A DNA stretch of 61,918 nucleotides, from positions 1 to 61,918 of IMG/VR virus record IMGVR_UViG_3300037852_000239. One strand, written 5' to 3'. The translations under genes were made by a program, and so were the position numbers. Position 1 is the first letter of the stretch. The number at the start of each line of letters is the position of its first letter. The stretch comes from a virus. Positions 20,382-47,591 of this stretch are shown piece after piece. Below the pieces are notes generated by a model. That model was given only the letters and a program-made list of their open reading frames with translations, did no database searches and had not been told where the DNA came from.

Positions 20382-20591
20382 CTAGAAGTGTAACCCGCCC
20401 ACGCCGGGCGCCTCCGCGCTGCCAAACTCGCTGACCGTGCCGACCTCCGCCTCCTCGCGTCCACGCTTCTTTGCGGACTTCAAGGTCGTATCGGTCAGCG
20501 TGAGCAGCGCCGTGCGTAGGTCCAGCGGATAGACACGCGTCGGCGGCAGCGGTTGATCCGCGAGGCTAAAGGGGCCGGGTGGTGGCGGCAT
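20382..20591 (-). CDS. Short DLRT-repeat protein, duplicate of the C-terminus of the 933-residue protein
   Basis: 69 residues: a Pro-rich start, one copy of the repeat (YPLDLRTALLTLTDTTLK), a basic segment (SAKKRGREE), and the end EFGSAEAPGVGGLHF. The upstream 933-residue protein ends DFGNTHTPNVGGLHF, and the DNA around both stops is nearly the same (CTAGAAGTGTAACCC on the plus strand). It is therefore a partial duplication, either a functional mini-version or a decaying copy. Confidence 0.6.
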   Translation of the reverse strand: MPPPPGPFSLADQPLPPTRVYPLDLRTALLTLTDTTLKSAKKRGREEAEVGTVSEFGSAEAPGVGGLHF

Positions 20592-20607
20592 ATATGAGGA
20601 CGACCCC

Positions 20608-23409
20608 CTAGAAGTGTAACCCCCCCACGTTGGGTGTATGCGTATTGCCGAAGTCGTTGGTCACGTCGAGCTGGTAGAGGTCCGTGAGGTGCGGCGCTTG
20701 CGGCGCGGGCGTCAAGGTCGTGGTGAGGAGATTGACCACCGCCGTGCGCAGGTCGAGGGCGTAGGGGCGGACCGGGGGCAGCGCGTCCACGTCCATGACG
20801 GCCGGGAACGTCTGCGCCGGCTTCAGGGTCGTGGTGATCAGGATCTGCAGCGCGGTGCGCAGGTCCGGCGGATACGGATGCGTGAGCGTGGGCAAGGCCT
20901 GTTCGCTGAGGTCGGGCGCAAATGGATACTGGAGGGTCGCCCCCAAGAGGTTGACCACCCCCGTGCGCAGATCCAGCGGATAGGGCCGCGTCGGGGGTAC
21001 CCCATCCACGGTGGCGACCACGGGATACGACAGCCCCAAGGGGAAATGGCACACGCTCGTGCGGAGATCCATCGGATAGGGCGTGGTGGGCGGCGAGTCC
21101 CATAGTTGATCGACAAAGGGCGCGGCGGGCAACGTCGACGTTTGGAGCGAGAGCGTGGCGGTGCGCAGGTCCAGCGCATAGGGCCGCGTGGGCGGGTTGG
21201 GCCAGTCCCGCGCCGGCACGGGGGCCGCCGCGGGCACCAGCGTCGATTCCAGGAGATTGCCCAGCGCCGTGCGCAACTCCAACGCGTACGGCGTGACCGG
21301 CGGATTCGGCCAGTCGTAGTGTTCAATCGGGGCGGCCAGCGTGGTCCGGATCAGATTCATCGTGGCAGTGCGCCACTCCAGCGCGTAGGACCGCTGCCAC
21401 GGCACGTGATACTCGATCGCACTGATGAAGGGTTGATTCTGATCGAGTTGGTAGTAGCTGATGAACGTGCGGAGATCCAACGGATACGGGAGGACGGGTG
21501 GCAACGGCTGATCGTCAGGGCGAAATGGCGGAGTGGCGGGCTGCAACGTCGTCTGCTGGAGATTGACCACCGCCGTGCGCAGGTCGAGGGCGTAGGGGCG
21601 CGTCGGCAGCCACGGGGGATCGGCGTTGACAAACGCAGCTTGGAATAACGTCGATTGCACCAGGGTCGTGGTGCTCGTGCGCAGATCGCTGGGGTACGCG
21701 AGGCGACCCGACGGCAGGGCGACGTCGGAGGGAAGGGCCACGGGTACGGGCGCCAGCGTGAGCACGAGGAGATTCTGGGTCGCCGTGCGCAGATCCAGCG
21801 GATAGGGCCGCGTCGGGGGCGAGTCCCACCACTGATCGACAAAGGGCGCGGCGGGCAATGTCGAGGTCTGCAGCGAGAGCGTCGACGTGCGGAGATCTCG
21901 CGGATACGGCAGGACGGGTGGCAGCGGCTGATCATAGGTGCCGCGCGCTTGTGCCACAGGCTGTAGCGTCGTTTGCTGGAGGTTCACCGTGGCCGTGCGC
22001 AGGTCCAGCGCGTAGGGCGGCATGGGGGGCCACATCGCGGTGAGGGCGATGACGGCCGGGAACGTCTGCGCCGGCTTCAGGGTGTTGGCCAGCAGATCGG
22101 TGATCGACGTGCGCAGATCGCTTGGGTAGGCTGGCGTGGCCGGCCGCGCGAGTTCCCCGTTCAGGAGGAGCGGATTGAACGGCTGCGGCCTGAGTGTGGA
22201 TTCCAGCAGGTTGTACGACGACGTACGGAGATCGCTCGGGTAGGCCTTTGGCGGAATGACGACGTCTACGAAGTAGGGCACACACGGTGGGGTCAGACTC
22301 GGGATGTAGGCCACCAGCACCCCGCACTCGTAGAGCGAGGCTGTCGCCGCCGTCGTATTCGTCACCATCCCGATGTCGGTGCCGGTCCCTGCTGGGTAGG
22401 TCGTGGGGTTGGGCGAGAGTTGGGTGAACAGGGCGGCCGTTGAGGTCACCAAGATGCTGGTCTGGGTGCCGTCCACGAGGATTTTGTCAGTCTCGGTCAG
22501 GGTAGACTTGGCGAAGATCCACCCTTCGACGCCGACAATCGTCGCGCCAGTGAGGTTAGCGTCTCCGACAGAGACGCCCTCAATGTTGTACTCCTCAGTG
22601 ATGGCTGACGCGACCACGGCCGCGGACCACCCATCTGCTTGGTTGAGTGGGCGCTCATTGACCTGCGGGGCGTGCCCAGAGCCGTAGCCGGACCCGCCAG
22701 AGCCAATCTGCGTGGTAAAGCCGTTGGTGGTGCCATTCGCAAACGGCCGTTTCGCGGTGACGTGGATGTTCCCGGGGTCCGTCAGATCGGTGCGATTGTC
22801 GACATAGACGCTATCGAAGTACATCGAGAACGCCGTGAACGGATTGAAGATATTCGTGTCAAAGGTGGGCCCCAGGCACAGATCGACCCCGCCCATATTC
22901 GTGAGAGTGCCTTGCGCGTTGGTACTCGTGACTTCAAGGACGCCATTCAAGAAGACTTTGATGGTCCAGCTGACGGTTGAGGTCAGCACGTACGAAACAG
23001 ACACGCGATACCACGTGTTGGCCGCCAGCACGGTCGTGCCGATCACTTCCGTGGCGCCACACGCTTGGATGGCCAGTTTTCCGGTGGTGCTCAAGCCGAC
23101 GGCAAACTCCGTGGAGCCATCACCTGTGACCAGGGACGAGATAAAGGCGAGGTCCGCAGACGGCGCCACACTCGGAAACCGCACCCACAGGGAGATGGCG
23201 CGTCCCGCATCGGCGAGGATAGCATTGCCCGTGATGATGATCGCGTACGACCCTGACCCGCCCGTCGTCGCGCACTTGATCGAATTGATTCCGTCTTCCT
23301 GCTGTGTGCTGTCGGAGGCGACGGTCCCCCCGCTGATCTGCGTGCCGCTGTAGAACTCCAGACCAGACGTCGCATCGGACCCGGCTTCCAGGAACAGCAC
23401 CGTGGCCAT
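20608..23409 (-). CDS. Large adhesion protein: lectin-like N-terminal domain plus 15 DLRT repeats
   Basis: 933 residues. Residues 1-210 look like a concanavalin A/LamG-type jelly roll (AISLWVRFPSVAPSADLAF, WTIKVFLNGVLEVTS), commonly glycan-binding. A second beta-rich region follows to about 390. The remaining 540 residues are 15 copies of a 32-39-residue unit, consensus (P)Y(P/A)xDLRTAxxNLLxTTLxP with a variable Pro-rich linker. The end is VGGLHF. Together with repeats in 33386-35938 and 20382-20591, this is probably a virion surface protein. I do not recognise the repeat family. Confidence 0.65.
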   Translation of the reverse strand: MATVLFLEAGSDATSGLEFYSGTQISGGTVASDSTQQEDGINSIKCATTGGSGSYAIIITGNAILADAGRAISLWVRFPSVAPSADLAFISSLVTGDGSTEFAVGLSTTGKLAIQACGATEVIGTTVLAANTWYRVSVSYVLTSTVSWTIKVFLNGVLEVTSTNAQGTLTNMGGVDLCLGPTFDTNIFNPFTAFSMYFDSVYVDNRTDLTDPGNIHVTAKRPFANGTTNGFTTQIGSGGSGYGSGHAPQVNERPLNQADGWSAAVVASAITEEYNIEGVSVGDANLTGATIVGVEGWIFAKSTLTETDKILVDGTQTSILVTSTAALFTQLSPNPTTYPAGTGTDIGMVTNTTAATASLYECGVLVAYIPSLTPPCVPYFVDVVIPPKAYPSDLRTSSYNLLESTLRPQPFNPLLLNGELARPATPAYPSDLRTSITDLLANTLKPAQTFPAVIALTAMWPPMPPYALDLRTATVNLQQTTLQPVAQARGTYDQPLPPVLPYPRDLRTSTLSLQTSTLPAAPFVDQWWDSPPTRPYPLDLRTATQNLLVLTLAPVPVALPSDVALPSGRLAYPSDLRTSTTTLVQSTLFQAAFVNADPPWLPTRPYALDLRTAVVNLQQTTLQPATPPFRPDDQPLPPVLPYPLDLRTFISYYQLDQNQPFISAIEYHVPWQRSYALEWRTATMNLIRTTLAAPIEHYDWPNPPVTPYALELRTALGNLLESTLVPAAAPVPARDWPNPPTRPYALDLRTATLSLQTSTLPAAPFVDQLWDSPPTTPYPMDLRTSVCHFPLGLSYPVVATVDGVPPTRPYPLDLRTGVVNLLGATLQYPFAPDLSEQALPTLTHPYPPDLRTALQILITTTLKPAQTFPAVMDVDALPPVRPYALDLRTAVVNLLTTTLTPAPQAPHLTDLYQLDVTNDFGNTHTPNVGGLHF
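20650..22250 (-). repeat. Coding repeat array: 15 copies of the DLRT unit
   Basis: Fifteen in-frame units, each about 100-115 bases, encoding Y(P/A)xDLRT(A/S)xxxLLxxTL followed by a Pro-rich linker. Units 8 (YQLDQNQPF) and 12 (SVCHFPLGL) have lost the second half of the motif, and unit 9 reads EWRT. Some linkers recur almost unchanged (PAAPFVDQ(W/L)WDSPPT; TFPAV), showing unit duplication. Boundaries are approximate. Confidence 0.9.
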
Positions 23410-23410
23410 G

Positions 23411-23683
23411 CTACTTGGCCCACCAGCTGCCGCTTGGCGGTGTCACGCCGATGTTACCCGTCCAGACAGCCACGGTGAGCGGGGCAATCGTGAAGACGTG
23501 CACGATAAGTTGGCACCCGGTGATGTTGGCCGGCACCCACACCGTGTTGATCCACGTTGCCACCAACGCAGGGGTGTTGTCAGGCCCCGGAATCATCGCA
23601 GTCGTCACGATGCGCGAGACGCCGCCTTGGTCCGCGACTACGAACGACCCGGACTGGCAGAGGACGGAGCGGATGGCAGGCAT
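23411..23683 (-). CDS. Small structural protein, hypothetical
   Basis: 90 residues, strand-rich (GSFVVADQGGVSRIVTTAM, GCQLIVHVFTIAPLTVAVWTG). The composition suits a small tail-associated beta-sandwich. It ends one base before the start of the 933-residue adhesion gene, so the two are translated together. No family recognised. Confidence 0.5.
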   Translation of the reverse strand: MPAIRSVLCQSGSFVVADQGGVSRIVTTAMIPGPDNTPALVATWINTVWVPANITGCQLIVHVFTIAPLTVAVWTGNIGVTPPSGSWWAK

Positions 23684-23702: not shown

Positions 23703-25877
23703 TCAGCAGGGGCTCGTGGTGGAGAACGGCGTCCCGTGCAAAAACCGCCAGTAGGCGGGCAGGGTCAAGGTCTGTCCACTCGGGACGGCGTTCACCCACG
23801 GCCACGAGCAGTTGTAGAAAAACCCTGGCTTGCTACTCAGATAGAACGACGCGGGCAACGCCGCGACGGCACTGTCCCAGTGCACGCTACTGGTGGCGTA
23901 GTCGTAATTGCCATCGCGGAGTGCGGTCGTCGCCACCGCATTGTCGACTATGCTCACGGTCCCGCCCGTGCCGCCCGTCGTCACATTGACGGGGATCGTG
24001 AACGTCGTCGGCGAGACGTAGGTCGCAGTATAGGTGTTGTTGATCGACGGTGTGCTGCCGGAGTGCCCCGAGATGACCACGGCCGATCCGCCGAGCGGGA
24101 CCGGCGAATCGGCGGGAATGGTAATCACCGTCGGGTTGGCGACTGAACTGCTGGTGATCGATACGCCGGTCTGCGTCGAATCCGGGTAGCCGAACACCCA
24201 GATTGGGATGTTGGGCGAAAAGTTGAACGAGGCATCGGCGCAGCCGGTGGTCGTGTCGTAGGCGGTGCAGTATTGGAACCCGGTATTCCCATCGTGCAGT
24301 GAGGGGTTTGTCCCGTATGTCGTTGTCGTCGCCATGCCCGAGCTGCCGATGACGTTCCCGACAAAGGAATAGTAATGATGGTACGCGCCGATCATCACAC
24401 CGCGCACTTCGGTCGCGTCGCTCAGGCTGGTCGAGGACGGCGGCAGCGGGTTGCCGGAGAGGTTGCGGAAGATCGTCGCCCAGTTCCGAAAGAATGTGAT
24501 ATAGACCGAGGACCCCCAGCGCGCATCGCCGCCCAGATTGAAGGTCTGGTTGCCCTCGAACAATTCGTAGTGCGGCGTGGTCATGTGCGAGGCGTTGGCG
24601 CCGACTTCTGGGATCGTCGGATACCCGGCTCCATAGCCCTCATCCAGATAGTTGTATGCGATGACGTTGCCGCCGCCACCCGCCCGCGACACGATCACCT
24701 TGTTGCCGTTGACGGCGATGTTGTTCTCGATCAAGCTGTCGGAGGTCGCCCAGGAAAAATCAATGAGGTAGCCCGCGCCGCCGGGATTGGGGCTCTTGGA
24801 TTCATGGGCATAGGAGTCCCGGATGACACAGCGGAAGCATTCATACATCCGCAACGCTGAGCCGTTGAACCAGTCCGAGTCGACATTTTTGACCCAGCTG
24901 TACTCAGCCACACTCAACAGGATGTTGCCGCCGCCATCCCCGCCTTCGCCGCCATGCACCCAGACATTCTCCAAGCCGGCATTCTTGACCGGCTGCAAGC
25001 CCGAGGCATACTGCGTCAGTTCGGCCGTGTGCGCGGTGTCGAAGGTCATGTGAAACGGCGTCGTGAAGGTGATCGTCGTGGAGGTCAGCGAGGCAATCTC
25101 CATGATCTGCGCGATGGGCCGACCGGTCGGCTCGCCCGACACCAGCCGCGAGAACCACCCCTGGCAGCTGTTCATGGTGCCGGTGGACGCCGTGTCGCAC
25201 TGGTTGTACGCGGTGTACGCGCTGTCGGCGAGCTTATCGATCAGCACCACTTGGCCCATCGACAGGCCGGTGGTGGACGTGACCGTGGCCGTCGACGTGC
25301 CCCGCACCGCGTCCGCGGTCAGCGCCATCGTGGACCCGAAACTCGCGACCGAGTCCAGGTACTGCCGCGGCCCGATCACCACCACCGATTGGCTGGTCCC
25401 GTCCGCGACGTCGATCTCCGTATCGTCGGGATTCCCGTCGCACCCGCGCACGACGATCCCCTTGTTGATGAGTATCGGCCCTGACGTGAGCGCGTAGACG
25501 CCACACCCGAGGGAGACATACTGCCCGACGGTACAACCGTTGATGGCGGTCTGGATCCCGCCCCGCGCATCCATGGAGCCATTCCCGTAGGTCGAGGCGG
25601 CCAGCGTGGCACAGGCCGTGGTGTAGTTCGGAATGCCGCCCACGGCATTCAGCCCAGGATTCCACGGCCCTTGCCGAATGGCGGGGAGGGTATACCCGGA
25701 GAGTCGGGCATCGACATGGACGGCGGTGGCGGGTGCCGGGGCTTGTCCGAACCCGATCGCGGCCAAGTACGCGAGTACCAGCCCCAGTCCTAGCACTAGC
25801 CCCAAGACCAGGCCACGCACCAGCCTCAAGACCAGGCCACGCTGATTACTCCGCGACAAGGGGCACCGTAAACACAT
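23703..25877 (-). CDS. Beta-helix (pectate-lyase-fold) protein with a signal-peptide-like N-terminus
   Basis: 724 residues. Residues 1-13 are basic. Residues 14-45 are a long hydrophobic Leu/Val/Gly segment, then GFGQAPAPA, like a signal peptide or membrane anchor. The body has repeating short strands and Asn/Gly turns typical of right-handed beta-helices (NVWVHGGEGGDGGGNILL, SLIENNIAVNGNKVIVSRAG, VIAYNYLDEG). A late Thr/Val-rich domain and a Cys-containing end follow. The fold suits a tailspike or depolymerase, but a signal sequence is unexpected for a virion protein; the gene may come from a bacterial secreted enzyme. The N-terminus overlaps the upstream gene by 32 bases. Confidence 0.6.
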   Translation of the reverse strand: MCLRCPLSRSNQRGLVLRLVRGLVLGLVLGLGLVLAYLAAIGFGQAPAPATAVHVDARLSGYTLPAIRQGPWNPGLNAVGGIPNYTTACATLAASTYGNGSMDARGGIQTAINGCTVGQYVSLGCGVYALTSGPILINKGIVVRGCDGNPDDTEIDVADGTSQSVVVIGPRQYLDSVASFGSTMALTADAVRGTSTATVTSTTGLSMGQVVLIDKLADSAYTAYNQCDTASTGTMNSCQGWFSRLVSGEPTGRPIAQIMEIASLTSTTITFTTPFHMTFDTAHTAELTQYASGLQPVKNAGLENVWVHGGEGGDGGGNILLSVAEYSWVKNVDSDWFNGSALRMYECFRCVIRDSYAHESKSPNPGGAGYLIDFSWATSDSLIENNIAVNGNKVIVSRAGGGGNVIAYNYLDEGYGAGYPTIPEVGANASHMTTPHYELFEGNQTFNLGGDARWGSSVYITFFRNWATIFRNLSGNPLPPSSTSLSDATEVRGVMIGAYHHYYSFVGNVIGSSGMATTTTYGTNPSLHDGNTGFQYCTAYDTTTGCADASFNFSPNIPIWVFGYPDSTQTGVSITSSSVANPTVITIPADSPVPLGGSAVVISGHSGSTPSINNTYTATYVSPTTFTIPVNVTTGGTGGTVSIVDNAVATTALRDGNYDYATSSVHWDSAVAALPASFYLSSKPGFFYNCSWPWVNAVPSGQTLTLPAYWRFLHGTPFSTTSPC

Positions 25878-26151
25878 TCGACACCGCGGATTCGGTGGAC
25901 CCGCCGGGGCTCACAGCCGTAATGGTGACGTCGTAGTTGCCCGCGGGGAGGGCCGCGAGGATGCCTTGGATATTCACACGGCACACGCCGCCTGGCGCAG
26001 GCGGCTTCCCGAATTCCTGAGAGGCCAGGACGGGGGTGACCGTGCCTTGGGCGTACACCTTCCCGATGTAATCCGTGACCGTCGGATCGGGGGACACGAC
26101 AAAGGTCACGTCGCCGACCGAGGGCCTCGGGACAAAGACGATGAGGGACAT
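25846..26151 (-). CDS. Small immunoglobulin/fibronectin-like structural protein
   Basis: 101 residues. The pattern VCRVNIQGILAALPAGNYDVTITAVSPGGSTESAVSNVFTV (a strand, the LPAGNYDVTITAV strand, and a final strand) is typical of fibronectin-III or Ig-like beta-sandwich domains on phage virions. It lies among tail genes. No enzymatic role. Confidence 0.55.
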   Translation of the reverse strand: MSLIVFVPRPSVGDVTFVVSPDPTVTDYIGKVYAQGTVTPVLASQEFGKPPAPGGVCRVNIQGILAALPAGNYDVTITAVSPGGSTESAVSNVFTVPLVAE

Positions 26152-26178: not shown

Positions 26179-26682
26179 TTAGAGGGGTTCGAAGATGAAG
26201 TGGCTGCCCATCAGTCCCGGCGTGCCCCCGGTGAACGCACTGAGCGACAACTCGCCAAAGCTGGCGGTGTTGCCCAGCATGATCGGCTCCTGCCCCACTG
26301 GGAAGTTCATCCTGAGCAACCCGCCGTAGGCGTTGAAGCTCTCGTTGTGGAGCGAGAGGGTGGCGCTGCGCTGAGGCACGGTGGTGGCGGAGTTGAACCC
26401 GACCACGGGGGCACCGAGCGCGGCGGTCGCGGGATCGAGCGCAGCGGCAGCGACCGCGTTGCCGGTTTGCACCAAGGTGATGCCCACCGTGGAGTCGCGT
26501 CCCAGCTGGAGGATGCCCGGGGCCGAGGATCCCGCCTGGCCGCCCCCGAATACTTCGTGGATGATCACGCGCTGGGTGCCGCTGCCCCCCTGCAGGGACT
26601 GATACCCCCCATTGGTGAAGCCCACCGTGTCGGCCACCGCGATCGGCGTCCACGACCGAATGTTGTATACCCAATTGGCCAT
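26179..26682 (-). CDS. Hypothetical virion protein
   Basis: 167 residues, Gly/Thr/Ser-rich, probably beta-structured (MANWVYNIRSWTPIAVADTVGF, SATLSLHNESFNAYGGLLRM). It has a strong upstream AGGAG seven bases before the ATG. Located in the tail-gene cluster; no family recognised. Confidence 0.5.
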   Translation of the reverse strand: MANWVYNIRSWTPIAVADTVGFTNGGYQSLQGGSGTQRVIIHEVFGGGQAGSSAPGILQLGRDSTVGITLVQTGNAVAAAALDPATAALGAPVVGFNSATTVPQRSATLSLHNESFNAYGGLLRMNFPVGQEPIMLGNTASFGELSLSAFTGGTPGLMGSHFIFEPL

Positions 26683-27978: not shown

Positions 27979-30900
27979 TTAAATCGCGGCCCCGTCAGCC
28001 CGCGACGGCCCCCCGAAGGGCTGGACCACCCGATACCCCGAGCGCGCCCCCCACGGCCCCACGCGCATGGCACAATCGCGCTTGAACAACTGGAAGGGCT
28101 GGGTCGAGGTCAACACGGGTTGGAAAGACCGCCCCTTGGCCGCGACCAGCGCCGAGAGATACGTGCGCGCGTAGACGCCACCAGAGGCCGGGATGGTATA
28201 GGTGGCCGCCACCGCGCCGTCATACCGGATCGACAAGGTGAGGTCCGCGGTGGACACATGGGCGATCAGGATGTCGCGCGCCGAGAAGTAGCCGGGGAGA
28301 TCGCACGTGGTGGGTTGAGGCGCCCATTCCGTGGCGAGTTCTGGCGCGGGTTCGGACACCCACTGCGTCTCGGCTTCGAATAATAGCCAGGGCACCGCGT
28401 CCATCCCGATCAGCCGCACGAGGTGCGCGGTGAACGGCGTCCAGCCTGCGGCCACACGCGGATACGCGATCGATTGCTCGCCGTTGTGGTTGATCACCAA
28501 GGTCAACACCGTCGTGCCGCCATCGCACTGGACCGCGATCGTTTTGTTCACCCCGAAGGTGTTGGCGCGGATGATCACCCCTTGTACCCACTTGGCCCCT
28601 GGCGATCCCAGATCGCTCCAATCGGTCGCGCGGTCGAGGATCTGCTCGACCTTGGGGACGAAGGAGGGCTGCCACCAATAGAGGATCAACCCGGCGACGG
28701 TGTTTGTCCATTGGAGCAGCACGGACATCGTGCGCGCGAGGTACCCCGCGCCGGCGTTGAGGTCGCAGGGGATGGTGCTCTCCTGCGTGTTGACCAAGGG
28801 GAGGAAGCCCAGCGCCGCGAGGTCATCCGAGAAGTATGGGATCACCGTGAGCCCAGCGGCGGCGGGGGCGTTGGCGTTGACGGCGAAGTCGCCCCAGAGC
28901 TTTTCGACGCGCGGATCGCCCGCATCGCTGCTGTGGGTCAGCGCCATGCCCGCGATGGGGAGGCCGAGGTCGGTCGTGCCACCCATGGTGGCGAGGAGGC
29001 CGGCCGAGGTGCCGACCACACAAGCATGCACCGATTCGCCGGGCTCCCAGTCGCGGACCTGGACGCGCACGCCGTAGCGGTCGTACCACCAGCGCTTGGC
29101 ACTCCACTCGAGCGCGAGCGTGGCCTGTGCACCGGAGGTGTCGGAGAAGTCCGCGTAGAAATACCCATCGACATAGGAGAGACGCAACTTGGCGGCCTGC
29201 GTCATGTCTGGCGGGTAGATGGTGAGCCCGCCTACGGTGATCGCGACGCCGGGGCCGCCATCATGCGGGAACAACAGGCGGAGATCCGGATCGGTGAGCG
29301 ATTGGGCGAGCGCGCCGGATCCCGCGCTGAAATAAATCCCGTCCTTGCCCCAGAACGCCACGCCGCCGGCCGCCACGACAAAGCTCCACGGCGTCCACCC
29401 GCCGCGGTTGCACGGCGTCACTTGTGGGTGGAAGGGCGTGCCCGGGCTGACATTCCCGTAATCCGGCAACAACGCATGAATATTCTCGGTCGACAACACA
29501 TAGGGCACGCCGTCATAAAACCAGCCGCACAACACCGGTTCATTCGCGTCGGTGACTTGGATGGTGTTGGCGTCCGAGGCCATCTCCGACGCGTTGGCGT
29601 TGGTCCAGTACACCGTCCCCGGGTTGTTGGGATCGCCCACGGCAAAGATGTACAACACGCCGCCGACGGTCCCCGCGAAGATTTGTGGCAGCGGCTGGCC
29701 CATGAGCGTCGGCCCAGGAATATAGAAGCTCACATTGGTTTGCGCGAGCGCGTTCTCGTTGATGGCGAGGAAGGTGGCGGAGTAGGGCTGCGCGTAAAAG
29801 GTGTAGGGGAGGCCGTTGATCAGGATTTGTGTCCCCGGCGCCCAGTTGGTGTTGAACAGCCCACCAGAGACGAGAAACACTGAGTTCCCGACCACGGTGC
29901 ACGTGCCGGTGACTGGGGCGCCGAGCGTCGGCCACGGTTGGAAGTTGGTGAAACTCAGTGGTTCGCCACCATCCAACTCGCTGTCGCTGAAGTTATCCGT
30001 GAACGACGCCGGGGGGACTTGGCTCCCGACATAGGTTGGAGTGGTGAGGTTCCCGCCTTGGCGGAACCAGTCCACGACATCGGCTTGCGGGTCCGGGGAG
30101 GCCGCGGCGCTGAGCGCGACCGCCAAGCGGCGCGGGATCAACCCGCCCAAGGTCATGGGACTGGGATTGCTGATCGCCCCAGTCGCGCGTGAGCGATAGC
30201 GGTTCCAGTAGAAAATGGGTTGTCCGGTGGCGCCGATGTCGACGTTGCCGCCACCGGACAACCAGAGCGAGGAATACTGGACGGTTAAGGGGTCCAAGCC
30301 GTTAGCGGAGATCAGGATCTCCACGCCGTTCACATTCGCGAGCGTCTTTGAGGTGTCGGCCCCCACGCGGATCAAGCTGCTCACCGGCGCCGTGAGCTGG
30401 ATCCACTGGTCGTTGCCCAAGGCGAGTTGCTGCGCGAGCTGGGTCGCCGTGATTGGCGCGGCGTTGTCGGGGGTATTCGGTCCCGTATTGGTGACGTTGC
30501 CGGCGGCCTTCTGGGCGGCGAGGGCCGCCGCAGACTGGCTGATCGGCGCCGTCGCCCCGGCGTTGATGGACTGCAGCGAATTGGCGAGATCGCTGCCGCT
30601 CCACACCATCATGTAGTAGTTGCTGAGGAACGGCGAGGGGCCGCCGTTGACGTCAAGGTAGACCCGCACCTCGGTCACCGAGCTGAGGAAGTCCACATTC
30701 AACGAGAGATGCAGGTAGTCGTCAGGCAGCACCGCGATGGCGTTTGGGAACTGCGCGAGGTTGTGCGCGACCGCGGTGTTCTGAATCCCGCCCACCAGCG
30801 GCGCGTTGTTCGCGGGAGTGAGGGTTTGCGTGAACGCGAGGACGGCGGCGGCGTCCCCTGCGCTGCGCGCCGTGGTGGTGTAGACGCGGACGGCTGACAA

Positions 30901-32031
30901 CCCGACGATTGCTTGGCCGAAGGCATGCGCCCCGTTGGTGTAACAGCGGAACGACAACGTGCCATTGCGCCCGGTCTGCACGGAGAGGATGCGCACGGGT
31001 TCGCCGCCAATCGTGATCAAGCAATCGACCGGGAAGTTCACGGGCTGGGTGGGCGAGAGAAACGTGCTGGCCGTGATGTCACCCGGCAGGTTGATCTGTG
31101 GGTTGGTGACACCGGGAACTGTTCCACGTGGAACACCCGTGCCCGCCGGAAGCAGCCCCCCACGACCGAGCCCCGACGGCACGGACAAGCTGCTGCCGAG
31201 CTGTCCGGTCCCCAGCGATCCGACCGGCACCACGGAACAAAACCCGGTCGACCCGACGTCGTAGGCGATCGCCGCCACCGTGGTCGAGGCCACGGGGATC
31301 TTCACATCCTGCACGACCACGACTTCCGCGCCACCAGCCAGGTACAACCGCTCGCCGATGCTGATGTTGGCGGCGTTGGCCAAGTGGATCAACGCCCACC
31401 CGGTGGCGCCGTTGTCGTAGAGGATGGTCGAGATCGTGGTGATGATCGGCGCGACGGGAGACGGGGCACTCGCGCTGGCGCCGGGGCTGACGGCGAACGC
31501 CCAGCTGCCCACCGCCGCAAAGTCTTCGATCACGATGGTCTGGAGCGGTTGCAGCACCGCGCTGGGTGGCGCGACGGGAGGCGCGATCCCCCACGCGCGC
31601 ACCGGACCGTCGGTCGAAGCCTTGCCGGTTTTGGCGGAGTCGCCGATGTAGATGAAGGGTCGAGGCGACTGCGGCGGCGTGGCGACGGCGAACGACAAGG
31701 GGTTGCCAGAGTACCCGGTATCCACGAGCGCGGGAGGATTCGCCGACAACACGTCGATGTGGAGGTTGAGGCCTGCGCCGGTGACGCGCACGGCGGGCTT
31801 GGTCGCCACCGTCGAGCTGTCGTTGAGGCGCGCGAGCGAATGGATGTTGGGTTGCGCGAGCGGGATGGTGTTGACGCCGATCAGCCCCAGCCGAGAGACG
31901 AACGCGTCCTCCAGATACGCCCGCACGTTAGATAAGAAAGGGAACTTCCCTGCGGGGATGGCGGTCGGGGAGGCCGACACGTACAACCCTTTGCACGTGA
32001 AGCGCTCGGTGAGGCGTTGGAACAAGGCCAT
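27979..32031 (-). CDS. Large tail nozzle-like protein (beta-propeller)
   Basis: 1350 residues, the largest gene here. The segment FAGTVGGVLYIFAVGDPNNP...VYWTNANASEMASDANTIQV followed by GWFYDGVPYVLSTENIHAL and GGVAFWGKDGIYFSAGSGA shows repeating blades like T7 gp12 / P22 gp10-type nozzle proteins of short tails, but much longer. The C-terminal third has further beta-domains. There is no tape-measure gene of comparable size, supporting a short tail. The role is inferred from motif style and position next to adaptor genes. Confidence 0.6.
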   Translation of the reverse strand: MALFQRLTERFTCKGLYVSASPTAIPAGKFPFLSNVRAYLEDAFVSRLGLIGVNTIPLAQPNIHSLARLNDSSTVATKPAVRVTGAGLNLHIDVLSANPPALVDTGYSGNPLSFAVATPPQSPRPFIYIGDSAKTGKASTDGPVRAWGIAPPVAPPSAVLQPLQTIVIEDFAAVGSWAFAVSPGASASAPSPVAPIITTISTILYDNGATGWALIHLANAANISIGERLYLAGGAEVVVVQDVKIPVASTTVAAIAYDVGSTGFCSVVPVGSLGTGQLGSSLSVPSGLGRGGLLPAGTGVPRGTVPGVTNPQINLPGDITASTFLSPTQPVNFPVDCLITIGGEPVRILSVQTGRNGTLSFRCYTNGAHAFGQAIVGLSAVRVYTTTARSAGDAAAVLAFTQTLTPANNAPLVGGIQNTAVAHNLAQFPNAIAVLPDDYLHLSLNVDFLSSVTEVRVYLDVNGGPSPFLSNYYMMVWSGSDLANSLQSINAGATAPISQSAAALAAQKAAGNVTNTGPNTPDNAAPITATQLAQQLALGNDQWIQLTAPVSSLIRVGADTSKTLANVNGVEILISANGLDPLTVQYSSLWLSGGGNVDIGATGQPIFYWNRYRSRATGAISNPSPMTLGGLIPRRLAVALSAAASPDPQADVVDWFRQGGNLTTPTYVGSQVPPASFTDNFSDSELDGGEPLSFTNFQPWPTLGAPVTGTCTVVGNSVFLVSGGLFNTNWAPGTQILINGLPYTFYAQPYSATFLAINENALAQTNVSFYIPGPTLMGQPLPQIFAGTVGGVLYIFAVGDPNNPGTVYWTNANASEMASDANTIQVTDANEPVLCGWFYDGVPYVLSTENIHALLPDYGNVSPGTPFHPQVTPCNRGGWTPWSFVVAAGGVAFWGKDGIYFSAGSGALAQSLTDPDLRLLFPHDGGPGVAITVGGLTIYPPDMTQAAKLRLSYVDGYFYADFSDTSGAQATLALEWSAKRWWYDRYGVRVQVRDWEPGESVHACVVGTSAGLLATMGGTTDLGLPIAGMALTHSSDAGDPRVEKLWGDFAVNANAPAAAGLTVIPYFSDDLAALGFLPLVNTQESTIPCDLNAGAGYLARTMSVLLQWTNTVAGLILYWWQPSFVPKVEQILDRATDWSDLGSPGAKWVQGVIIRANTFGVNKTIAVQCDGGTTVLTLVINHNGEQSIAYPRVAAGWTPFTAHLVRLIGMDAVPWLLFEAETQWVSEPAPELATEWAPQPTTCDLPGYFSARDILIAHVSTADLTLSIRYDGAVAATYTIPASGGVYARTYLSALVAAKGRSFQPVLTSTQPFQLFKRDCAMRVGPWGARSGYRVVQPFGGPSRADGAAI

Positions 32032-32046
32032 GGGGATGCGCCGCTC

Positions 32047-33372
32047 CTATCCCGCGGTGTCACCGGTCATGAGTGGCGCGGTGCGCGTGGGGTCCGCGCT
32101 CTGCACGCGCTGGAATTGGCGATTCGGTACCGTCTTGCGTGCAATGGCGAGGGTGACGCCAGCGGCGCGCATGAACCGGTCGACGAGCGGCTGCGTCGCC
32201 TCCACCAACGCGGGGCCGTCCTTGATGAGGGCCAAATGCTCCGCATAGTCGAGCACGATCGAGTACAGCTCGGGGCCTAACGGGACATACCCAAACCCCG
32301 AGATCGGCACCACGGCGTTCGCCACCACGTCCAGCGTCACCGACCACGGTTCGCCACCAGGTTGGACACCAGGTGGGGGAATCACCGCCAACAGGTTGTG
32401 GCCCGCGGTCAGCACCTGTGCCACGGTGCCGCGTGTGGTCTGCCACAGCGGATGATAGGTGTCGAGATCCGCTAAGCTGTTGATCGCGCACGGCACATTG
32501 TCGATGCGTGCGGTCAGGACCACGCCGGCTGTTCGCGCGAGCGTCACGCCGTGGCGGAAGCGGGATTCAAAGTAGGCCGCGCGTCCGAGATCCTGCGACA
32601 ACCCATCCTTCGATAAGAGATCCGCCAACGCCCCGAAGCGCACCACCCACGCCCAGTCATCGGGGACGCCCAGAGGCGTTGGCCCTGCCGCCGGGTTGAA
32701 CGCCGCCCCGCGGTTGATGCTGACGAGGTCGAGCACGCCAGTGTCCTGGGGCGGCGGCGCCAACTGGATCATCAGCGGTGGCGCCGCGCCCACGCTGTAG
32801 GTCTGTGGCGGGCGGGTGGGGTCTTGCGCCCAGCCGGTGGAAAAATGGTTGAACGCCCATTCGTCGTCGCGCAACAACGGGGCGACCACGGCGTCCGGGG
32901 TCGACAACCAGACCGCGCGCCGGGGCTCGATCACGGCTTCGGGGAGCTGGATACGGCCGTTGGGCGGCGGCGAGATCGGCAACAGTTGGCGTGTCAGCAC
33001 CGCGCCGGTTTCGCGCAGGAACTGGTCGCGCCGGTATTGGAGGGCGCTGGCGAGATCAGCGAGGGAGAACTGGTCCGTCCCGGCCCAGGTGTTCCACGTA
33101 GAACCTTGTGGGGGCTCCAAGAGGGTGTACTGCATGGACACGATCAGTTGCTGATCGGTGAGGGTATAGCCGCGTACGGTGGGGAGGACTTGCGACAGGT
33201 CATAGAACGTGGTCGACCCCACGGTGTCGAACGTTGCGGTTTCGTGGGTGGACTCGGTCAGCGCATTCCACGTGCGGAGGGCTTCGCCCAGGTCACGTTC
33301 CAGCTCGTCCACCGTCCACCGCACGTGGTTGGGATCAACAAGGCGCGCGGCGAGGTCGTTGACGGCGCTCAT
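32047..33372 (-). CDS. Head-tail connector/adaptor-like protein
   Basis: 441 residues. The N-terminal NHVRWTVDELERDLGEALRTWN resembles the start of phage adaptor proteins in which 'RWTxxEL...LNxA' helices line the connector. A long beta-rich middle and a helical end (GPALVEATQPLVDRFMRAAG) follow. It lies between spikes and the nozzle-like gene. It could be an adaptor, tail-tube base or stopper; the family is not certain. Confidence 0.5.
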   Translation of the reverse strand: MSAVNDLAARLVDPNHVRWTVDELERDLGEALRTWNALTESTHETATFDTVGSTTFYDLSQVLPTVRGYTLTDQQLIVSMQYTLLEPPQGSTWNTWAGTDQFSLADLASALQYRRDQFLRETGAVLTRQLLPISPPPNGRIQLPEAVIEPRRAVWLSTPDAVVAPLLRDDEWAFNHFSTGWAQDPTRPPQTYSVGAAPPLMIQLAPPPQDTGVLDLVSINRGAAFNPAAGPTPLGVPDDWAWVVRFGALADLLSKDGLSQDLGRAAYFESRFRHGVTLARTAGVVLTARIDNVPCAINSLADLDTYHPLWQTTRGTVAQVLTAGHNLLAVIPPPGVQPGGEPWSVTLDVVANAVVPISGFGYVPLGPELYSIVLDYAEHLALIKDGPALVEATQPLVDRFMRAAGVTLAIARKTVPNRQFQRVQSADPTRTAPLMTGDTAG

Positions 33373-33385
33373 CGTTGTCTCTAGT

Positions 33386-35938
33386 CTACCCCCAGGTCTG
33401 CCAGCGGTACGGCGACGCGGGCCAGATCAACACCTGTCCATGCGGCACCGGGATGGGTGGCGGCTTCAGGGTCGACTCCAGCAGGTTTAGGATCGCCGTG
33501 CGCAGATCGCTGGGGTAGGGTGGGCGCAGTGGCGCGTTGGCGTCAAGATGGATCACCCACGGCGGCGGCCCTGGCGCGAGCGTCGTCTCGAGCAAGGCCG
33601 CGAGCGCGGTGCGCAGGTCCAGCGCGTAGGGCCGGGTGAGGAGCATCCCCACGTCGCGCTGCACAAACGGCCGATCGCGCAAGGTCGATTCCAGCAGATC
33701 CACCACGGCCGTGCGCAGATCGAGCGGGTACGCCGGCCGGGGGAGGATCAACCCACTGTCGATGGGGTGCAGCGGCGGCAGCGGCACCAACAAGGTCGTC
33801 GTCAAGAGGTTGATCGCCGCGGTGCGCAGGTCGACCGGGTAGGGGGGCCGCCCCGAGGACAACCAGGCGACGTCGTACGGCCTGATGGGCGCGACACCGG
33901 GTGCGAGCACCGTCGTGAGCAGGTTGAGCGTCGCCGTGCGCAGGTCAAGGGGATACGACAGGCCCCCTCGTGCCAAGCCAAGCTCGACCGTGAGCAGGGG
34001 CACACTCGAAAACTCGTAGGCGCCGATCGTCGGGGGGTTGGGCCGCGTCGCCCCGACAAAGTCCGTGGGGACCAACGCGACGTAGAGGCCCCCGGCAATC
34101 GCGGCACTCCCGGCCTGCACGCGGAAGTTGGGCGGTGTCCCTGTCGGATTCACAAACAGCGGATTCAGTTGGAGTCCGTTGTGCACGATGGCCGTGTGGG
34201 CCCCGCTCTGGTAGCCGCCATAGTCCACGATCTGGGCGCCGCCATTCCCATACGCGATATCGTTGTCAGACGTCGGGGGCAAGGTTTCGTCGTAGTACTG
34301 GAACACCAACCCATCGCTCGTGTTTCCATATATCGTGTTGTGGTGGCACAGGACGCTGGACTGGTAGCTGTAGATCAGGATGCCGGTGGCGCTGCAGATG
34401 TTCGTGCCAGCGGCGTTGAAGCCATTGCCATAGGCGAGACAGTTGAAGATGACGTTGCCGGTTGCCGGATTCCCGCTGTCGGCGATGAAGTTGAACCCGC
34501 CACCCGAGCTGCCCCCGACGCCGCTGCCCCCGACATTGATGATGTTGTTGTAGAACCGGCATTCCCGCACGGTGTTGTTGGACCCACGAAACTGCATGCC
34601 GTAGGCGTGGTTGTTGTAGAAGTCACAGCCCTGCACCAGGGTGTGATTCGTGTCCAGATAGGCGCCATACCCGGAGTTCGCAAAGGTGGGGTCCAACCCA
34701 CAATCGTGGAGCAGGCAGTAGAGGACTTGATGATGATCGGAGGCGCCGTTGTTCGGGGAGAATCCCAAGCCGTCGCCGCCGTTGTTCTTGATCTCCAGGT
34801 GGATGAACTGGTTGAAAGACGCGCCGCCGCTGGAGTAGACCAGGGGCACGCCGCCCCCGCCGACTTGGTCACTGTGGGGATTGTTGATCCCGTCGATGAT
34901 GAGATCTTCAAAGATCAAGTAGGAGGGCGCGGTCCCCGCTGGCGTGGTCAGTTCGATGGCGAAGGTCGCGGGGCCTGGGGGGCGGATGACCACGACCTCG
35001 GCGCCGGGACGGGGGCCACGTATCGTGCTGGCCGGGAGGTTCCCCGGGTACGCGCTCCAGGTAATCGGCGCGCTGACGGTGCCGGAGTTGACGGTGCCCA
35101 GCGTCGTGTTGATCGTCTGCCCCGCTCCGATGTAGAGGCCGCCTCGAATTAGAATTGTTGATCCCGCCGGGGCGGTCGCCGCCGCATGCGCCAGCGTCAA
35201 CCACGGGGTGGACGGACTGGTCCCCGTGTTGCTGTCCGAGGCCGACCCGCCAATGCTCGCGATGTCGACGTAATAGAAGGGGCCACCCCCACCGCCGCCT
35301 CCGCCAGTGGACGGCTTGTAGGTGATGATGTGGGCTTGGAGCGCGCCAGCGGGCGAGACGCCGGCCCAGGTGGGGTTGGTGGGGGATGCGGCAGCGAGGT
35401 GGTAGGCCATCGCCGCCGCGAAGTTCACGCCGTTGACCAGGACGTTCTGGTCAGTAATCGTGAAGCCGGCGTTGATCGTCGCGGGACCACCGGTCCACCA
35501 CCCCGCCAAGAACGTGATCGTGGCCTCCCCAGCGAGTACAGAGACACTGCCGGGTTGGAGCGCGGTGCCACTCGTGGTCTGCGCCGAGGTGAAGGCATCG
35601 ACCGCGGCGCTGGTCAGGGTGCCGGATACGCCAAGGACATCCAGCGTTTCGTAGTAGTCCGCCCCTGACGTGAAGAAGGACATCACCCCGGTGACGTTGG
35701 GGTTCTCGCACTCCCACGTCGCGCTGTAGAGCGGCGTCACCGCGTCTGATTGCGTGGTGACTTGGACGTAGGTGTTCCCGTTGGAGTCGGAGGGGGCCGG
35801 GGCGCCGAAATAGCCAGACGTGCCGATCACGATGACGGACGCGCCCGTCATGGCGATCGGGCCAGGCGTCCCCGTCGTGGAGGCGCCCGTGCCCCCCGAT
35901 CCCTGCGCCGCGACGTGAGCGACGATGCCAATCGCCAT
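33386..35938 (-). CDS. Tailspike: N-terminal virion domain, poly-Gly linker, beta-helix, five DLRT repeats
   Basis: 850 residues. Residues 1-210 are a Thr/Gly/Val-rich beta domain. Next is an eight-Gly run, then FYYVDIASIGGSASDSNTGTS, typical of the entry to right-handed beta-helix proteins (Asp/Asn-rich turns, STPWLTLAHA). The helix continues with N-x-x-x-x-x-C repeats (DCGLDP, NNTVRECRFYNNIINV, VLCHHNTIYGNTSDG). The C-terminal 180 residues hold five DLRT repeats shared with 20608-23409. It probably binds or cleaves surface polysaccharide. The end WQTWG differs from the VGGLHF of the other two repeat genes. Confidence 0.75.
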   Translation of the reverse strand: MAIGIVAHVAAQGSGGTGASTTGTPGPIAMTGASVIVIGTSGYFGAPAPSDSNGNTYVQVTTQSDAVTPLYSATWECENPNVTGVMSFFTSGADYYETLDVLGVSGTLTSAAVDAFTSAQTTSGTALQPGSVSVLAGEATITFLAGWWTGGPATINAGFTITDQNVLVNGVNFAAAMAYHLAAASPTNPTWAGVSPAGALQAHIITYKPSTGGGGGGGGPFYYVDIASIGGSASDSNTGTSPSTPWLTLAHAAATAPAGSTILIRGGLYIGAGQTINTTLGTVNSGTVSAPITWSAYPGNLPASTIRGPRPGAEVVVIRPPGPATFAIELTTPAGTAPSYLIFEDLIIDGINNPHSDQVGGGGVPLVYSSGGASFNQFIHLEIKNNGGDGLGFSPNNGASDHHQVLYCLLHDCGLDPTFANSGYGAYLDTNHTLVQGCDFYNNHAYGMQFRGSNNTVRECRFYNNIINVGGSGVGGSSGGGFNFIADSGNPATGNVIFNCLAYGNGFNAAGTNICSATGILIYSYQSSVLCHHNTIYGNTSDGLVFQYYDETLPPTSDNDIAYGNGGAQIVDYGGYQSGAHTAIVHNGLQLNPLFVNPTGTPPNFRVQAGSAAIAGGLYVALVPTDFVGATRPNPPTIGAYEFSSVPLLTVELGLARGGLSYPLDLRTATLNLLTTVLAPGVAPIRPYDVAWLSSGRPPYPVDLRTAAINLLTTTLLVPLPPLHPIDSGLILPRPAYPLDLRTAVVDLLESTLRDRPFVQRDVGMLLTRPYALDLRTALAALLETTLAPGPPPWVIHLDANAPLRPPYPSDLRTAILNLLESTLKPPPIPVPHGQVLIWPASPYRWQTWG
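33470..33960 (-). repeat. Coding repeat array: 5 copies of the DLRT unit
   Basis: Five units encode YPLDLRTATLNLL, YPVDLRTAAINLL, YPLDLRTAVVDLL, YALDLRTALAALL and YPSDLRTAILNLL, each followed by (T/E)(T/S)(V/T)L and a Pro-rich linker. Same repeat as at 20650-22250. Boundaries approximate. Confidence 0.9.
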
Positions 35939-35950
35939 TGGCGGGGCGTG

Positions 35951-37789
35951 CTACGAGTACCCGGTAATCCCGACGGATTGCAGGGTCGCGGTGGTCAGGC
36001 TGGTAATCGTCAGGTAGAACTCCCGCGTGGTCGCTTGCGGGATCGACATCGTGCCGAGGAGGGTCCACCCGGTGTTGGTGGTGACGGTCCACGGGAAGTT
36101 GACGCTGGAACTATTGATGATGCGCAGCGTATAGGATTGACCGATGGTCGGATCGTAGCCAGGGACGGTCAACGCGGCGATCAACGCGGCCACCGTGGGG
36201 AGGACGAGGAGCGCACTGGCCACTAACGCCCCGGTCATGTTGAGTGTGACGCCGCTGCTGCCGCCCACCAACGCGCTCGCCGGTAGAATCACTCCCGCGG
36301 TGGCAGGGTTGGTGTTATACGCCACGGCGGCTTGGGCGGGGGTTGGGAGATCGGACAGCCCGACCACGCCCATGAAGCGCGATCCCGGAAACGGCATCCC
36401 GACGAGCACCGCCGTAGTCGCGGTGAAGTTGCCGCCCACGATGGCAATCGGTCCGGTCTGGCCGGTGTCAAACGCGACGCAGTAGGGGCTGCCTTGGCAC
36501 ACACAGCCCGTGATGGTGACTTGCGTGGCATTGGACGCGATGTCGATGTCGGATTTGACGTTGGTGTTGAAGACCATGCCGGTGACGGCGATCAACGTGC
36601 TTTGCGTGATGGCGAGCCCGATGCCGCCGCCCCCGGTGGCCAACGCCAATTGGTTGTACCCCCCAATGATGGTGGCCGCTAAGACTCCCGTGAGGGAGAT
36701 GTTCGGCGAGACGAGACTGGCCTCCACAAACGGATTGGTCATCAGGAGCTTCTGGACATCGGTGAAGATGAAGCCCCCGGCGTTGCCGCTCGCCTTGCAG
36801 TGCAGCAGATAGATGTCATCTAATGAGATGACGTTCCCATTGACGGGTTGGTTGAACCAGAACCCATACACGCCGTTGGCATCCGCAAAACAATAGTTCA
36901 TGCGGATGTCTTCGCCGCCGCCTTGGACGAGGAACCCGCTTAGTGCACACCCGTTGGCTTGGCAGTAATCCAGATCCATCTGGCTCTGCCCTTGCAAGGG
37001 GTTGGTGGTGCCGTCGAGGAGAAATCCATTGCCGGTATTGGGCCCGGTGATGCACTGCCGCCACGTGATGGCGGTGCCCGCCGAATAGAACCCGTTGAAG
37101 TGGAACGAGGTGTTGACGCGTTCGTGGTGGATGTAGGCCCAGCGGGTGGGGCCTTGGATGTGGATGCCGTCTCCGGTGCGGTTGGGCACGCCGCTGGTGA
37201 GGGTGAAGTCCAGGAGGTTGACGTAGGACGCCGCGACGATGATGCCGTGCGCCGTGCCCGATTGGACGGTGATGGTCGCCGCGCGGTCGGCGCCGACGAG
37301 GGAGACGCCGGGGCTGGCGATCGTTAATGGGCTGGTGATGACGTAGGCCGCCGAGGTCACCGGCAACCAGACGATCCCGCCGCCGGCCACACCGGCCGCA
37401 TTAATCGCCGCTTGGATCGCTAGCGTGTCATCGTTGATACCGTTGCCCAGCGCGCCGAAGTCCGAGACGTTGAACACGATCGGCGATTGATCCACGAAGA
37501 TGTAATCGCCGAGGGTATAGGGTGACGTGATGCCGGTGCCGGAGAACTGCACATCGACATGCTGACGCAGGCAGTAGAAGTTGAAAAAGCCGTTGATGTC
37601 CGCGGTCAGGGGGTTGGCGAGCGGCGTCAGCCCAAACTGGTCGGCGTAGAGCAAGACGGGGTTGGTGGTCCCTGAGGCAAACACGGTCACCGTCGCGCCA
37701 GGGGCGAGGCCCGCGGGCGCGGTGGTCGTGTTGGGCGTCTGAGGCCGGGAATAGGCGTATCCCCAACCCCGGTTCATGTTGAGCGCCAT
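35951..37789 (-). CDS. Tailspike, pectate-lyase-3-type beta-helix
   Basis: 612 residues. An N-terminal virion-attachment segment (about 1-100) precedes VFNVSDFGALGNGINDDTLA followed by IQAAINAA, the standard opening of pectate-lyase-3/tailspike beta-helices. Repeated rungs follow (GDGIHIQGPTRWAYIHHERV, IRMNYCFADANGVYGFWF). A separate C-terminal domain from about 480 is hydrophobic and Thr/Leu-rich, like a trimerisation or chaperone-type end. It probably recognises and degrades host surface glycan. Adjacent to the second spike. Confidence 0.8.
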   Translation of the reverse strand: MALNMNRGWGYAYSRPQTPNTTTAPAGLAPGATVTVFASGTTNPVLLYADQFGLTPLANPLTADINGFFNFYCLRQHVDVQFSGTGITSPYTLGDYIFVDQSPIVFNVSDFGALGNGINDDTLAIQAAINAAGVAGGGIVWLPVTSAAYVITSPLTIASPGVSLVGADRAATITVQSGTAHGIIVAASYVNLLDFTLTSGVPNRTGDGIHIQGPTRWAYIHHERVNTSFHFNGFYSAGTAITWRQCITGPNTGNGFLLDGTTNPLQGQSQMDLDYCQANGCALSGFLVQGGGEDIRMNYCFADANGVYGFWFNQPVNGNVISLDDIYLLHCKASGNAGGFIFTDVQKLLMTNPFVEASLVSPNISLTGVLAATIIGGYNQLALATGGGGIGLAITQSTLIAVTGMVFNTNVKSDIDIASNATQVTITGCVCQGSPYCVAFDTGQTGPIAIVGGNFTATTAVLVGMPFPGSRFMGVVGLSDLPTPAQAAVAYNTNPATAGVILPASALVGGSSGVTLNMTGALVASALLVLPTVAALIAALTVPGYDPTIGQSYTLRIINSSSVNFPWTVTTNTGWTLLGTMSIPQATTREFYLTITSLTTATLQSVGITGYS

Positions 37790-38303: not shown

Positions 38304-39389
38304 TCACCAAGTCACAGGATGCGATTGCCAATAATCGGCATCGGCTGGCCCGACTCCCGCCATCCGGTCGCGCACCAACCCGTGCCCGCGGCTGATGATC
38401 GATTGCAGCCCGGCTTCGTCGTCCGCCAACTTCGCGTCCATCAACGCGCCGCGCTTGCCATCTCGCCCGCCATACAACGACGCGCGCAGTTCGTTGGCGA
38501 GCAACGACCAGTTGGTCTTGGCCATGGTCGGAAACTTTCCGATGTTCGCCTGCACGTGCGGATACCCGAAGTGGAGCAGCGCCAGCTGGATGATCAATTC
38601 ATCAGGGATGCCAGGCGGCGGCACGTCTGACGCGTTGACGAAGTCGGTGCCGCGCCGACGATACCGACAATACCAGGTTTGCCCTTGGGTGGACCCGGGC
38701 CAGAACTCGTAGATCGGTTGCCCATACGTGGTGGTCGGTTGTGGGGTGGTCGTGGCGCCGGGTAGCGTAGAGGCCAGGGCGTTGCCCCGGTAGAGGCCCA
38801 GGAAATAGCTGAGCCCCAGCGACAGCCGCTGCGGATCGCGGGCATCGATGTAGGCAGAGGTATAACTGAGCTTCGGCCCGGTGATGGCAAAGCCGTTGAC
38901 CATGTCGGTGACCGACACCCACGCGAGGAAGTCGGTGGCTGGTGGAATGATATAGGTCCGGTAGATCAGGTAGGTGGAGGCCGCGTTGGTGCCCTCCATC
39001 ACCGCGCGGTCGAGCGTCAGGACCAGCGCAGTGGGTACGCTGCTATTGACCCCGATGATGTTGTAGATCTCGCTGGGCGAGGGCGCGGAGAGGCTCGTGA
39101 AGCGGATCTGGAGCTGGGTCGCTTGCGGGACGCTGGTTGAGAGGGTGAACGGCAACAGCGCCGCCGAGGCCGCCGCGTTCAGCGTGACGAGATTGGTGAA
39201 GCGAACAATGGCAACGGCGCCGGAGGTGATGGCCGGGGGGCACACCACCGCGGCATCCGCAACGAGGAAGCTCCAGCGCTTGGCGTCACAGATCTTCCGC
39301 CACGCGCGATTGATAAACGTGCGCGCAAGCGTCGGCGAGAGCCCAGGGAGGACTCCCGCCAATTCCGCGGAGAGGTCCAAGAAGGCCAC
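38304..39389 (-). CDS. Head-tail adaptor-like protein
   Basis: 361 residues. The start LDLSAELAGVLPGLSPTLARTFINRAWRKICDAKRWSFL is the helix-turn-helix opening commonly seen in phage adaptor proteins ('...INxAWxxIcdaRxWSFL'). A beta-rich insertion occupies the middle. The C-terminal helices (DELIIQLALLHFGYPHVQANIGK...LANELRASLYG) complete the pattern. It likely docks under the portal. Located after the capsid and decoration genes, as expected. Confidence 0.65.
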   Translation of the reverse strand: MAFLDLSAELAGVLPGLSPTLARTFINRAWRKICDAKRWSFLVADAAVVCPPAITSGAVAIVRFTNLVTLNAAASAALLPFTLSTSVPQATQLQIRFTSLSAPSPSEIYNIIGVNSSVPTALVLTLDRAVMEGTNAASTYLIYRTYIIPPATDFLAWVSVTDMVNGFAITGPKLSYTSAYIDARDPQRLSLGLSYFLGLYRGNALASTLPGATTTPQPTTTYGQPIYEFWPGSTQGQTWYCRYRRRGTDFVNASDVPPPGIPDELIIQLALLHFGYPHVQANIGKFPTMAKTNWSLLANELRASLYGGRDGKRGALMDAKLADDEAGLQSIISRGHGLVRDRMAGVGPADADYWQSHPVTW

Positions 39390-47330: not shown

Positions 47331-47591
47331 TCAGGCGTCCTCTTCCTTGGTGACTTCTAACATCACCGGTTGGATCGGTGCACCACCGGTTCTGATCCAG
47401 AGGCGCACACGCTCTCCGGCCAGGACGCGTGCGCGTTCTTCGTCCGTGAATGCCCACTCGGTCAGGACTGTCCCATCCGCATAGATCACGGCAGGTAACG
47501 CGCTGACATGTGCAGCCTCGTCGCCTGCAATCGTGACGGCCCATAAGTCCACATGGACGATCGCCAAGTCACGGAGATCACAGGGAATCAT
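47331..47591 (-). CDS. Conserved small phage protein beside TerL
   Basis: 86 residues: PAVIYADGTVLTEWAFTDEERARVLAGERVRLWIRTGG. This Dxx(V)-x-x-W-x-(F/L)-x-(E/D)-E-R-x-x-(V/I)-x-x-G-x-x-(I/V)-x-L pattern is one I recall from small phage proteins of unknown role. Its start overlaps the end of TerL by four bases. Confidence 0.6.
   Translation of the reverse strand: MIPCDLRDLAIVHVDLWAVTIAGDEAAHVSALPAVIYADGTVLTEWAFTDEERARVLAGERVRLWIRTGGAPIQPVMLEVTKEEDA

Follow-up and report, generated by a model that had tools for sequence, protein, structure and literature searches.

We found that a peptide repeat encoded by an uncultured phage is, by sequence comparison, a subtype of a widespread, unnamed Pro-rich repeat family in uncultured phages, and that arrays of these repeats are strictly linked to a second gene, FNA. 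The partner gene is the more informative finding of the two. We analyzed a 61.9-kb phage record from IMG/VR (the window). Three ORFs in the window, gene A, gene B and ORF C, contain the DLRT units from which the analysis started (Table 1).

Table 1. Features of the window. Array extents are approximate and replace those proposed in the earlier note.
Feature	Position	Strand	Description
ORF C	20382-20591	-	69 aa; single unit; VGGLHF end as in gene A
Gene A	20608-23409	-	933 aa; 15 units Y(P/A)x(D/E)(L/W)RT, from residue 390 to the end
Gene A array	20611-22242	-	15 DLRT/DWPNP-type units, residues 390-933
Gene A N-terminal region	22243-23409	-	Residues 1-389; no confident family
90-aa ORF	23411-23683	-	Directly before gene A
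Inserted gene	23703-25877	-	724 aa; in a variable slot between gene A and FNA; without a family match
ORF	25846-26151	-	101 aa; between FNA and gene A
FNA	26179-26682	-	167 aa; predicted jelly-roll; upstream of gene A; E 5.8e-56 with an FNA HMM that includes the window row
Gene B	33386-35938	-	850 aa; 5 units from residue 662
Gene B array	33389-33955	-	5 units
Choice-of-anchor-Q-like module	33990-34144		Gene B residues 599-649, directly before the array; NF041518 1.7e-5, just under cut-off
Gene B N-terminal part	33974-35938	-	N-terminal domain and right-handed beta-helix, with the choice-of-anchor-Q-like module at its end
Second beta-helix region	35951-37789		Beta-helix domain
Structural genes homologous to and collinear with Tunturi_1	27979-32031, 32047-33372, 38304-39389, 40548-41678, 44123-46159, 47588-49954		

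The earlier note had counted 21 units (15 + 5 + 1) of the form Y(P/A)xDLRT(A/S)xxxLLxxTLxP, and we confirmed this count on the three ORFs, all on the minus strand. It had assigned the units to three adhesion genes. Genes A and B do contain arrays, but the third is only the one-unit ORF C, which carries the C-terminal VGGLHF of gene A. The 3' end GTTACACTTCTAG (VGGLHF) is common to gene A and ORF C (window 20382-20620), and ORF C looks as if it were a duplicated array terminus or the leftover of another array gene. Units in gene A are spaced 32-38 aa apart. The linkers before units A10 and A11 are canonical DWPNP; the other gene A linkers are an eroded form.

The repeat is conserved as protein. 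Y, R and T were invariant (21/21 units), and D, L and two later L positions were conserved in at least 90%. The codon pattern of the motif core matched 9 times in the window and 0 times in 100 dinucleotide shuffles. Synonymous codons varied at the conserved residues (TAC 12, TAT 9; GAT 10, GAC 9), and in the Y, D, L, R and T columns pS was 0.505 and pN 0.032 (pN/pS about 0.06). High pS together with low pN indicates selection on the protein sequence rather than a fresh DNA duplication, and these codon comparisons indicate that the repeat in the window is old. Mean unit identity was 0.363 within gene A, 0.40 within gene B and 0.355 between the two, compared to 0.22-0.24 with the nearest outside relative. 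Because identity between A and B is near that within A, and that with the outside relative is lower, the gene B array appears to have arisen within this lineage by copying of an A-like array.

The DLRT motif is part of a larger repeat, PFxQxDWPNPxxxxYxxDLRTWxxxLL. A full unit is about 35-45 aa and contains, in order, PFxQxDWPNP, Y-x-x-DLRTW, xxLLxxTL and a Pro-rich linker. We collected ~76 different array proteins, almost all of them from IMG/VR. The window units share the arrangement that defines the family, W/x-P-x-P followed by a Y..DLRT-like core at an offset of ~9 residues. A search of IMG/VR with a tandem DLRT DNA pattern yielded a single true relative, L006, which is called L011 in its full-length form. 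Another match to this pattern (L005) was a chance match, and a match to a DWPNP pattern (L010) was chance-like too. The L011 relative is a 939-aa protein with units PFxxxxWPNPxxxxYPxDLRT; gene A and gene B matched it by BLASTP with E values of 2e-34 and 3e-10, respectively.

The L011 units connect the window to the wider family. In profile comparisons, the window units matched the L011 units at 97.5%, and the L011 units matched the wider DWPNP set at 97.4%. Direct comparison of the window units with the DWPNP family was weaker (70%, E 4e-5). An HMM made from non-window DWPNP units only gave 23.7 bits for the gene A array (maximum of 0.8 in 200 shuffles) and 12.3 bits for ORF C (shuffle maximum of 3.6). 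The gene B array alone gave no score with this HMM, and its tie to the family runs through gene A and L011. Used as a query, the gene B array has poor linker patterns and found no relatives.

The family is a phage family. In viral contigs, the pattern F.Q.DWPNP matched 95 stretches, and almost all of these have ORFs that contain several motifs. The 76 array proteins (copies removed) had a median of 7 scored units and a maximum of 28. Approximately 85,000 bacterial and archaeal genomes yielded 37 stretches, mostly single-motif and at about the level estimated for chance. The only multi-unit arrays in bacterial bins, L117 and L136 (one Ignavibacteria bin, KW1-S15_2) and L126 (a Deltaproteobacteria bin), may be prophages or mis-binned phage contigs. 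In four of the loci (L017, L012, L048 and L076) the arrays terminate C-terminally in a second short repeat, WxxVxDSQTPN.

No existing name was found for the family. No model in Pfam, NCBIfam or PHROGs covered the array at its curated cut-off; for PF12323 in L017 and similar isolated matches, no stretch passed the cut-off on its own. The PDB contained no sequence match for the repeat, and a PDB profile search gave nothing above chance. The array proteins tried by tblastn against isolated phages and plasmids gave no array match, although low-complexity filtering may mask weak ones; the sole match was in the beta-helix part of gene B. A full-text literature search found no paper joining DWPNP with phage. 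Neither outcome that the earlier note set against its own reading occurred: a known family under a different name did not turn up, and many other phages carry the repeat. The suggestion that the element is new stands in that no curated family names it; the DLRT motif first described is only a subtype, since the full repeat includes DWPNP and is found in dozens of phages.

We found that arrays occur with FNA. FNA is a homologous protein of ~165 aa, named for its motif FNAxGG, that is often encoded upstream of arrays. In the window it is 2.77 kb upstream of gene A on the same strand; the gene B array is on the opposite side, upstream of FNA rather than downstream. FNA was upstream and on the same strand in 99/99 fetched loci with both genes, a number in which some contigs fetched by two scans are counted twice. 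FNA was present in 32/32 array loci whose sequence extends 4.2 kb or more upstream. An independent scan that started from FNA found a detectable array in 32/48 loci with at least 4.2 kb downstream, a lower bound because units in several of the remaining loci are few or weak, and because an array was detected beside some FNA copies but not beside others nearly identical to them. Taken together, the two scans indicate that the array appears to need FNA, and that FNA, present in some loci without a detectable array, must also have another role.

The gap between FNA and the array ranges from 12 bp to 3.8 kb with different genes inserted, and the linkage survives. It also holds through deep divergence of FNA (identity down to 22%). 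The FNA copies of the window and L011 form a pair in the FNA tree (SH-aLRT 93), and these two also have the DLRT subtype in common; absence of the array is scattered. Linkage of this kind can also stem from both being tail or adhesin genes of one operon. At a more distant FNA locus (L155:7491-9200) another type of repeat (LYAPTVAYAVTTPTISGT...) is present in the downstream gene, suggesting that repeat families other than DWPNP can take the place of the array next to FNA. In three other loci (L158, L188 and L204), FNA is immediately followed by GIY-YIG endonuclease-like ORFs (CGIYVIEQ..FYIGSS), which may be mobile genes that entered at this site. Pantoea phage LIMEzero, followed as a clue to the role of FNA, led nowhere.

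FNA is predicted with confidence to be an all-beta jelly-roll. AlphaFold2 with a 52-row alignment gave a model with pLDDT of 92.3 and pTM of 0.87. The closest structural neighbor of this model was a Haloferax virus turret (Z 7.7); others were ExsF (Z 6.5-6.8, a level similar to that of many other jelly-rolls), C1q, small capsid proteins and uncharacterized phage proteins. Matches of Z <8 are common for jelly-rolls, and for this predicted model they fix the fold class, not the function.

The arrays are attached to unrelated domains. The beta-helix that the earlier note saw in gene B was borne out by Pfam (PF13229, Beta_helix, 4e-9; 36.7 bits, gathering cut-off 25.9). Its "lectin-like" N-terminus of gene A was not: the best candidate, Cip1-like PF21340, reached E 0.062 and 13 bits against a cut-off of 27, with no PDB sequence match, and a beta-sandwich is possible for this region. 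Among the array proteins, BLAST clustering sorted N-termini of at least 100 aa into 17 groups, three of them made up of pieces of window proteins. The N-terminus was shorter than 40 aa in 32/69 arrays with a scorable start; ~40% of array proteins are nearly without an N-terminal domain and the others carry unrelated ones. With unrelated N-terminal domains on arrays both in the window phage and elsewhere, and with the gene B array in the place of the C-terminus of its homologue Tunturi_1 gp17 (see below), the idea of a modular element is supported.

For the arrays themselves, the prediction is an extended, largely unfolded chain. The earlier note had called for a fold prediction of consecutive units. 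Modeling of units 8-11 with flanks (AlphaFold2, 84-row alignment) gave no usable fold (pLDDT 60, pTM 0.15): short helices over LRTALGNLLESTL-type stretches and an extended remainder, in a model too poor to prove disorder. One explanation makes the array a spacer, flexible or semi-rigid, which acts as a stalk and holds adhesin domains off the particle; the motif would serve local structure and have no specific partner. This would fit the predicted extended state, the Pro content of the array (15.6%, compared to 3.9% in the N-terminal part) and the variable number of units. However, no compact repeat fold was predicted, and in the 32 arrays with a very short N-terminus a stalk would have no domain to support. 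A plain spacer would not be expected to combine varying linkers with strongly conserved Y, D, L, R, T and DWPNP, and the strict linkage to FNA is left unexplained. We therefore consider a spacer unlikely, and a string of docking peptides more likely than the surface stalk suggested earlier.

A second explanation, which we consider equally improbable, is that the array is itself a multivalent adhesin, with units that attach directly to a repetitive component of the host surface, either a polysaccharide or an envelope protein. Aromatic Trp and Tyr residues are frequent in sugar-binding sites, adjoining genes encode beta-helix tail proteins and copy number varies. In contrast, sugar-binding repeats are usually compact hairpins, the array is predicted to be mostly unfolded, and the FNA linkage is not explained. 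In a third explanation, which we consider very unlikely, the array would be an extended virion protein of cementing or tape-like type that laces over the lattice of the capsid or tail, and FNA would be a decoration protein in its own right, with a jelly-roll fold. Decoration proteins of both the jelly-roll and the intrinsically disordered kind have been described (review PMC7602432), and the top structural match of FNA is a virus turret, but the arrays are fused to beta-helix and other domains, lie among tail genes and lack the fixed unit number that a tape would require.

Based on these results we tentatively favor the notion that the units are Pro-rich docking motifs for FNA, a reading to which we give a little less than even weight. 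Each unit would act as a short peptide for docking and would stay largely extended before it is bound. An array would bind many copies of the jelly-roll FNA, which would probably be a multimeric virion surface protein, and would adhere to the particle by many weak contacts while carrying a receptor-binding or enzymatic domain fused N-terminally. Such adhesin domains would be optional, and could be exchanged by fusion to an array, as in gene B. The repeat family, its distribution in phages, the linkage to FNA, the predicted jelly-roll and the domain swaps are observed; from them we infer physical docking, location on the virion and the tethering role. Multivalent docking would explain five properties together: conserved motifs with free linkers, free unit number, arrays without domains, unrelated fusions and dependence on FNA. 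More doubtful is the broader proposal that these genes represent an undescribed principle of virion assembly in a large set of uncultured phages, in which docking-peptide arrays sit on a jelly-roll platform and modules are swapped by array fusion, as in a phage "scaffoldin".

The repeat family and its partner gene recur in dozens of distinct uncultured phages and are nameless in the databases searched. If the arrays dock on the jelly-roll, this would explain how these phages attach and exchange adhesins. FNA and the repeat would then be an annotation handle for many contigs, and virion anchoring and the evolution of host range in uncultured phages would become directly testable.

One of the nearest known systems is Tunturi_1 (PP887698), an isolated acidobacterial podovirus of Tunturiibacter (PMC11924767). 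Its terminase, portal, coat and tail genes are collinear with those of the window, most at 25-34% identity (Table 1). This collinearity indicates that the window is probably from a short-tailed phage, possibly of Acidobacteriota. Neither FNA nor the repeats were found in the whole Tunturi_1 genome, which makes this phage a natural control. Tunturi_1 gp17 matches the end of the gene B beta-helix (residues 604-647, TRPNPPxIGAxEF). Past this shared end, gp17 runs into other domains whereas gene B has the DLRT array. Bacterial choice-of-anchor-Q-like modules precede various C-terminal anchors. Gene B and the second beta-helix region share their beta-helix domains with phage tail-spikes (PF12708/PF13229). 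Many studied tail-spikes have the virion anchor at the N-terminus; in contrast, the gene B array is C-terminal.

Two other systems work in a way that resembles the proposed docking. In Bacillus spores, the ExsF trimer binds a Pro-rich anchor peptide in its inter-subunit clefts (PMC11952670). The pair of ExsF and exosporium leader peptide (BclA, F-Anchor) is like the putative arrangement here in that a Pro-rich motif of surface proteins docks on a jelly-roll, ExsF, which gives a middling structural match to FNA. Unlike the phage arrays, ExsF belongs to a bacterial spore coat and its partners have one N-terminal peptide per protein; the phage arrays are mostly C-terminal with up to 28 units, and no sequence similarity was found. 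ExsF is thus an analogy of mechanism, not a sign of membership. As a works-like idea only, claiming no relation of sequence or fold, we also compare the arrays to cellulosome scaffoldin/dockerin and other docking arrays, in which functional modules sit on numerous short docking units and can be exchanged.
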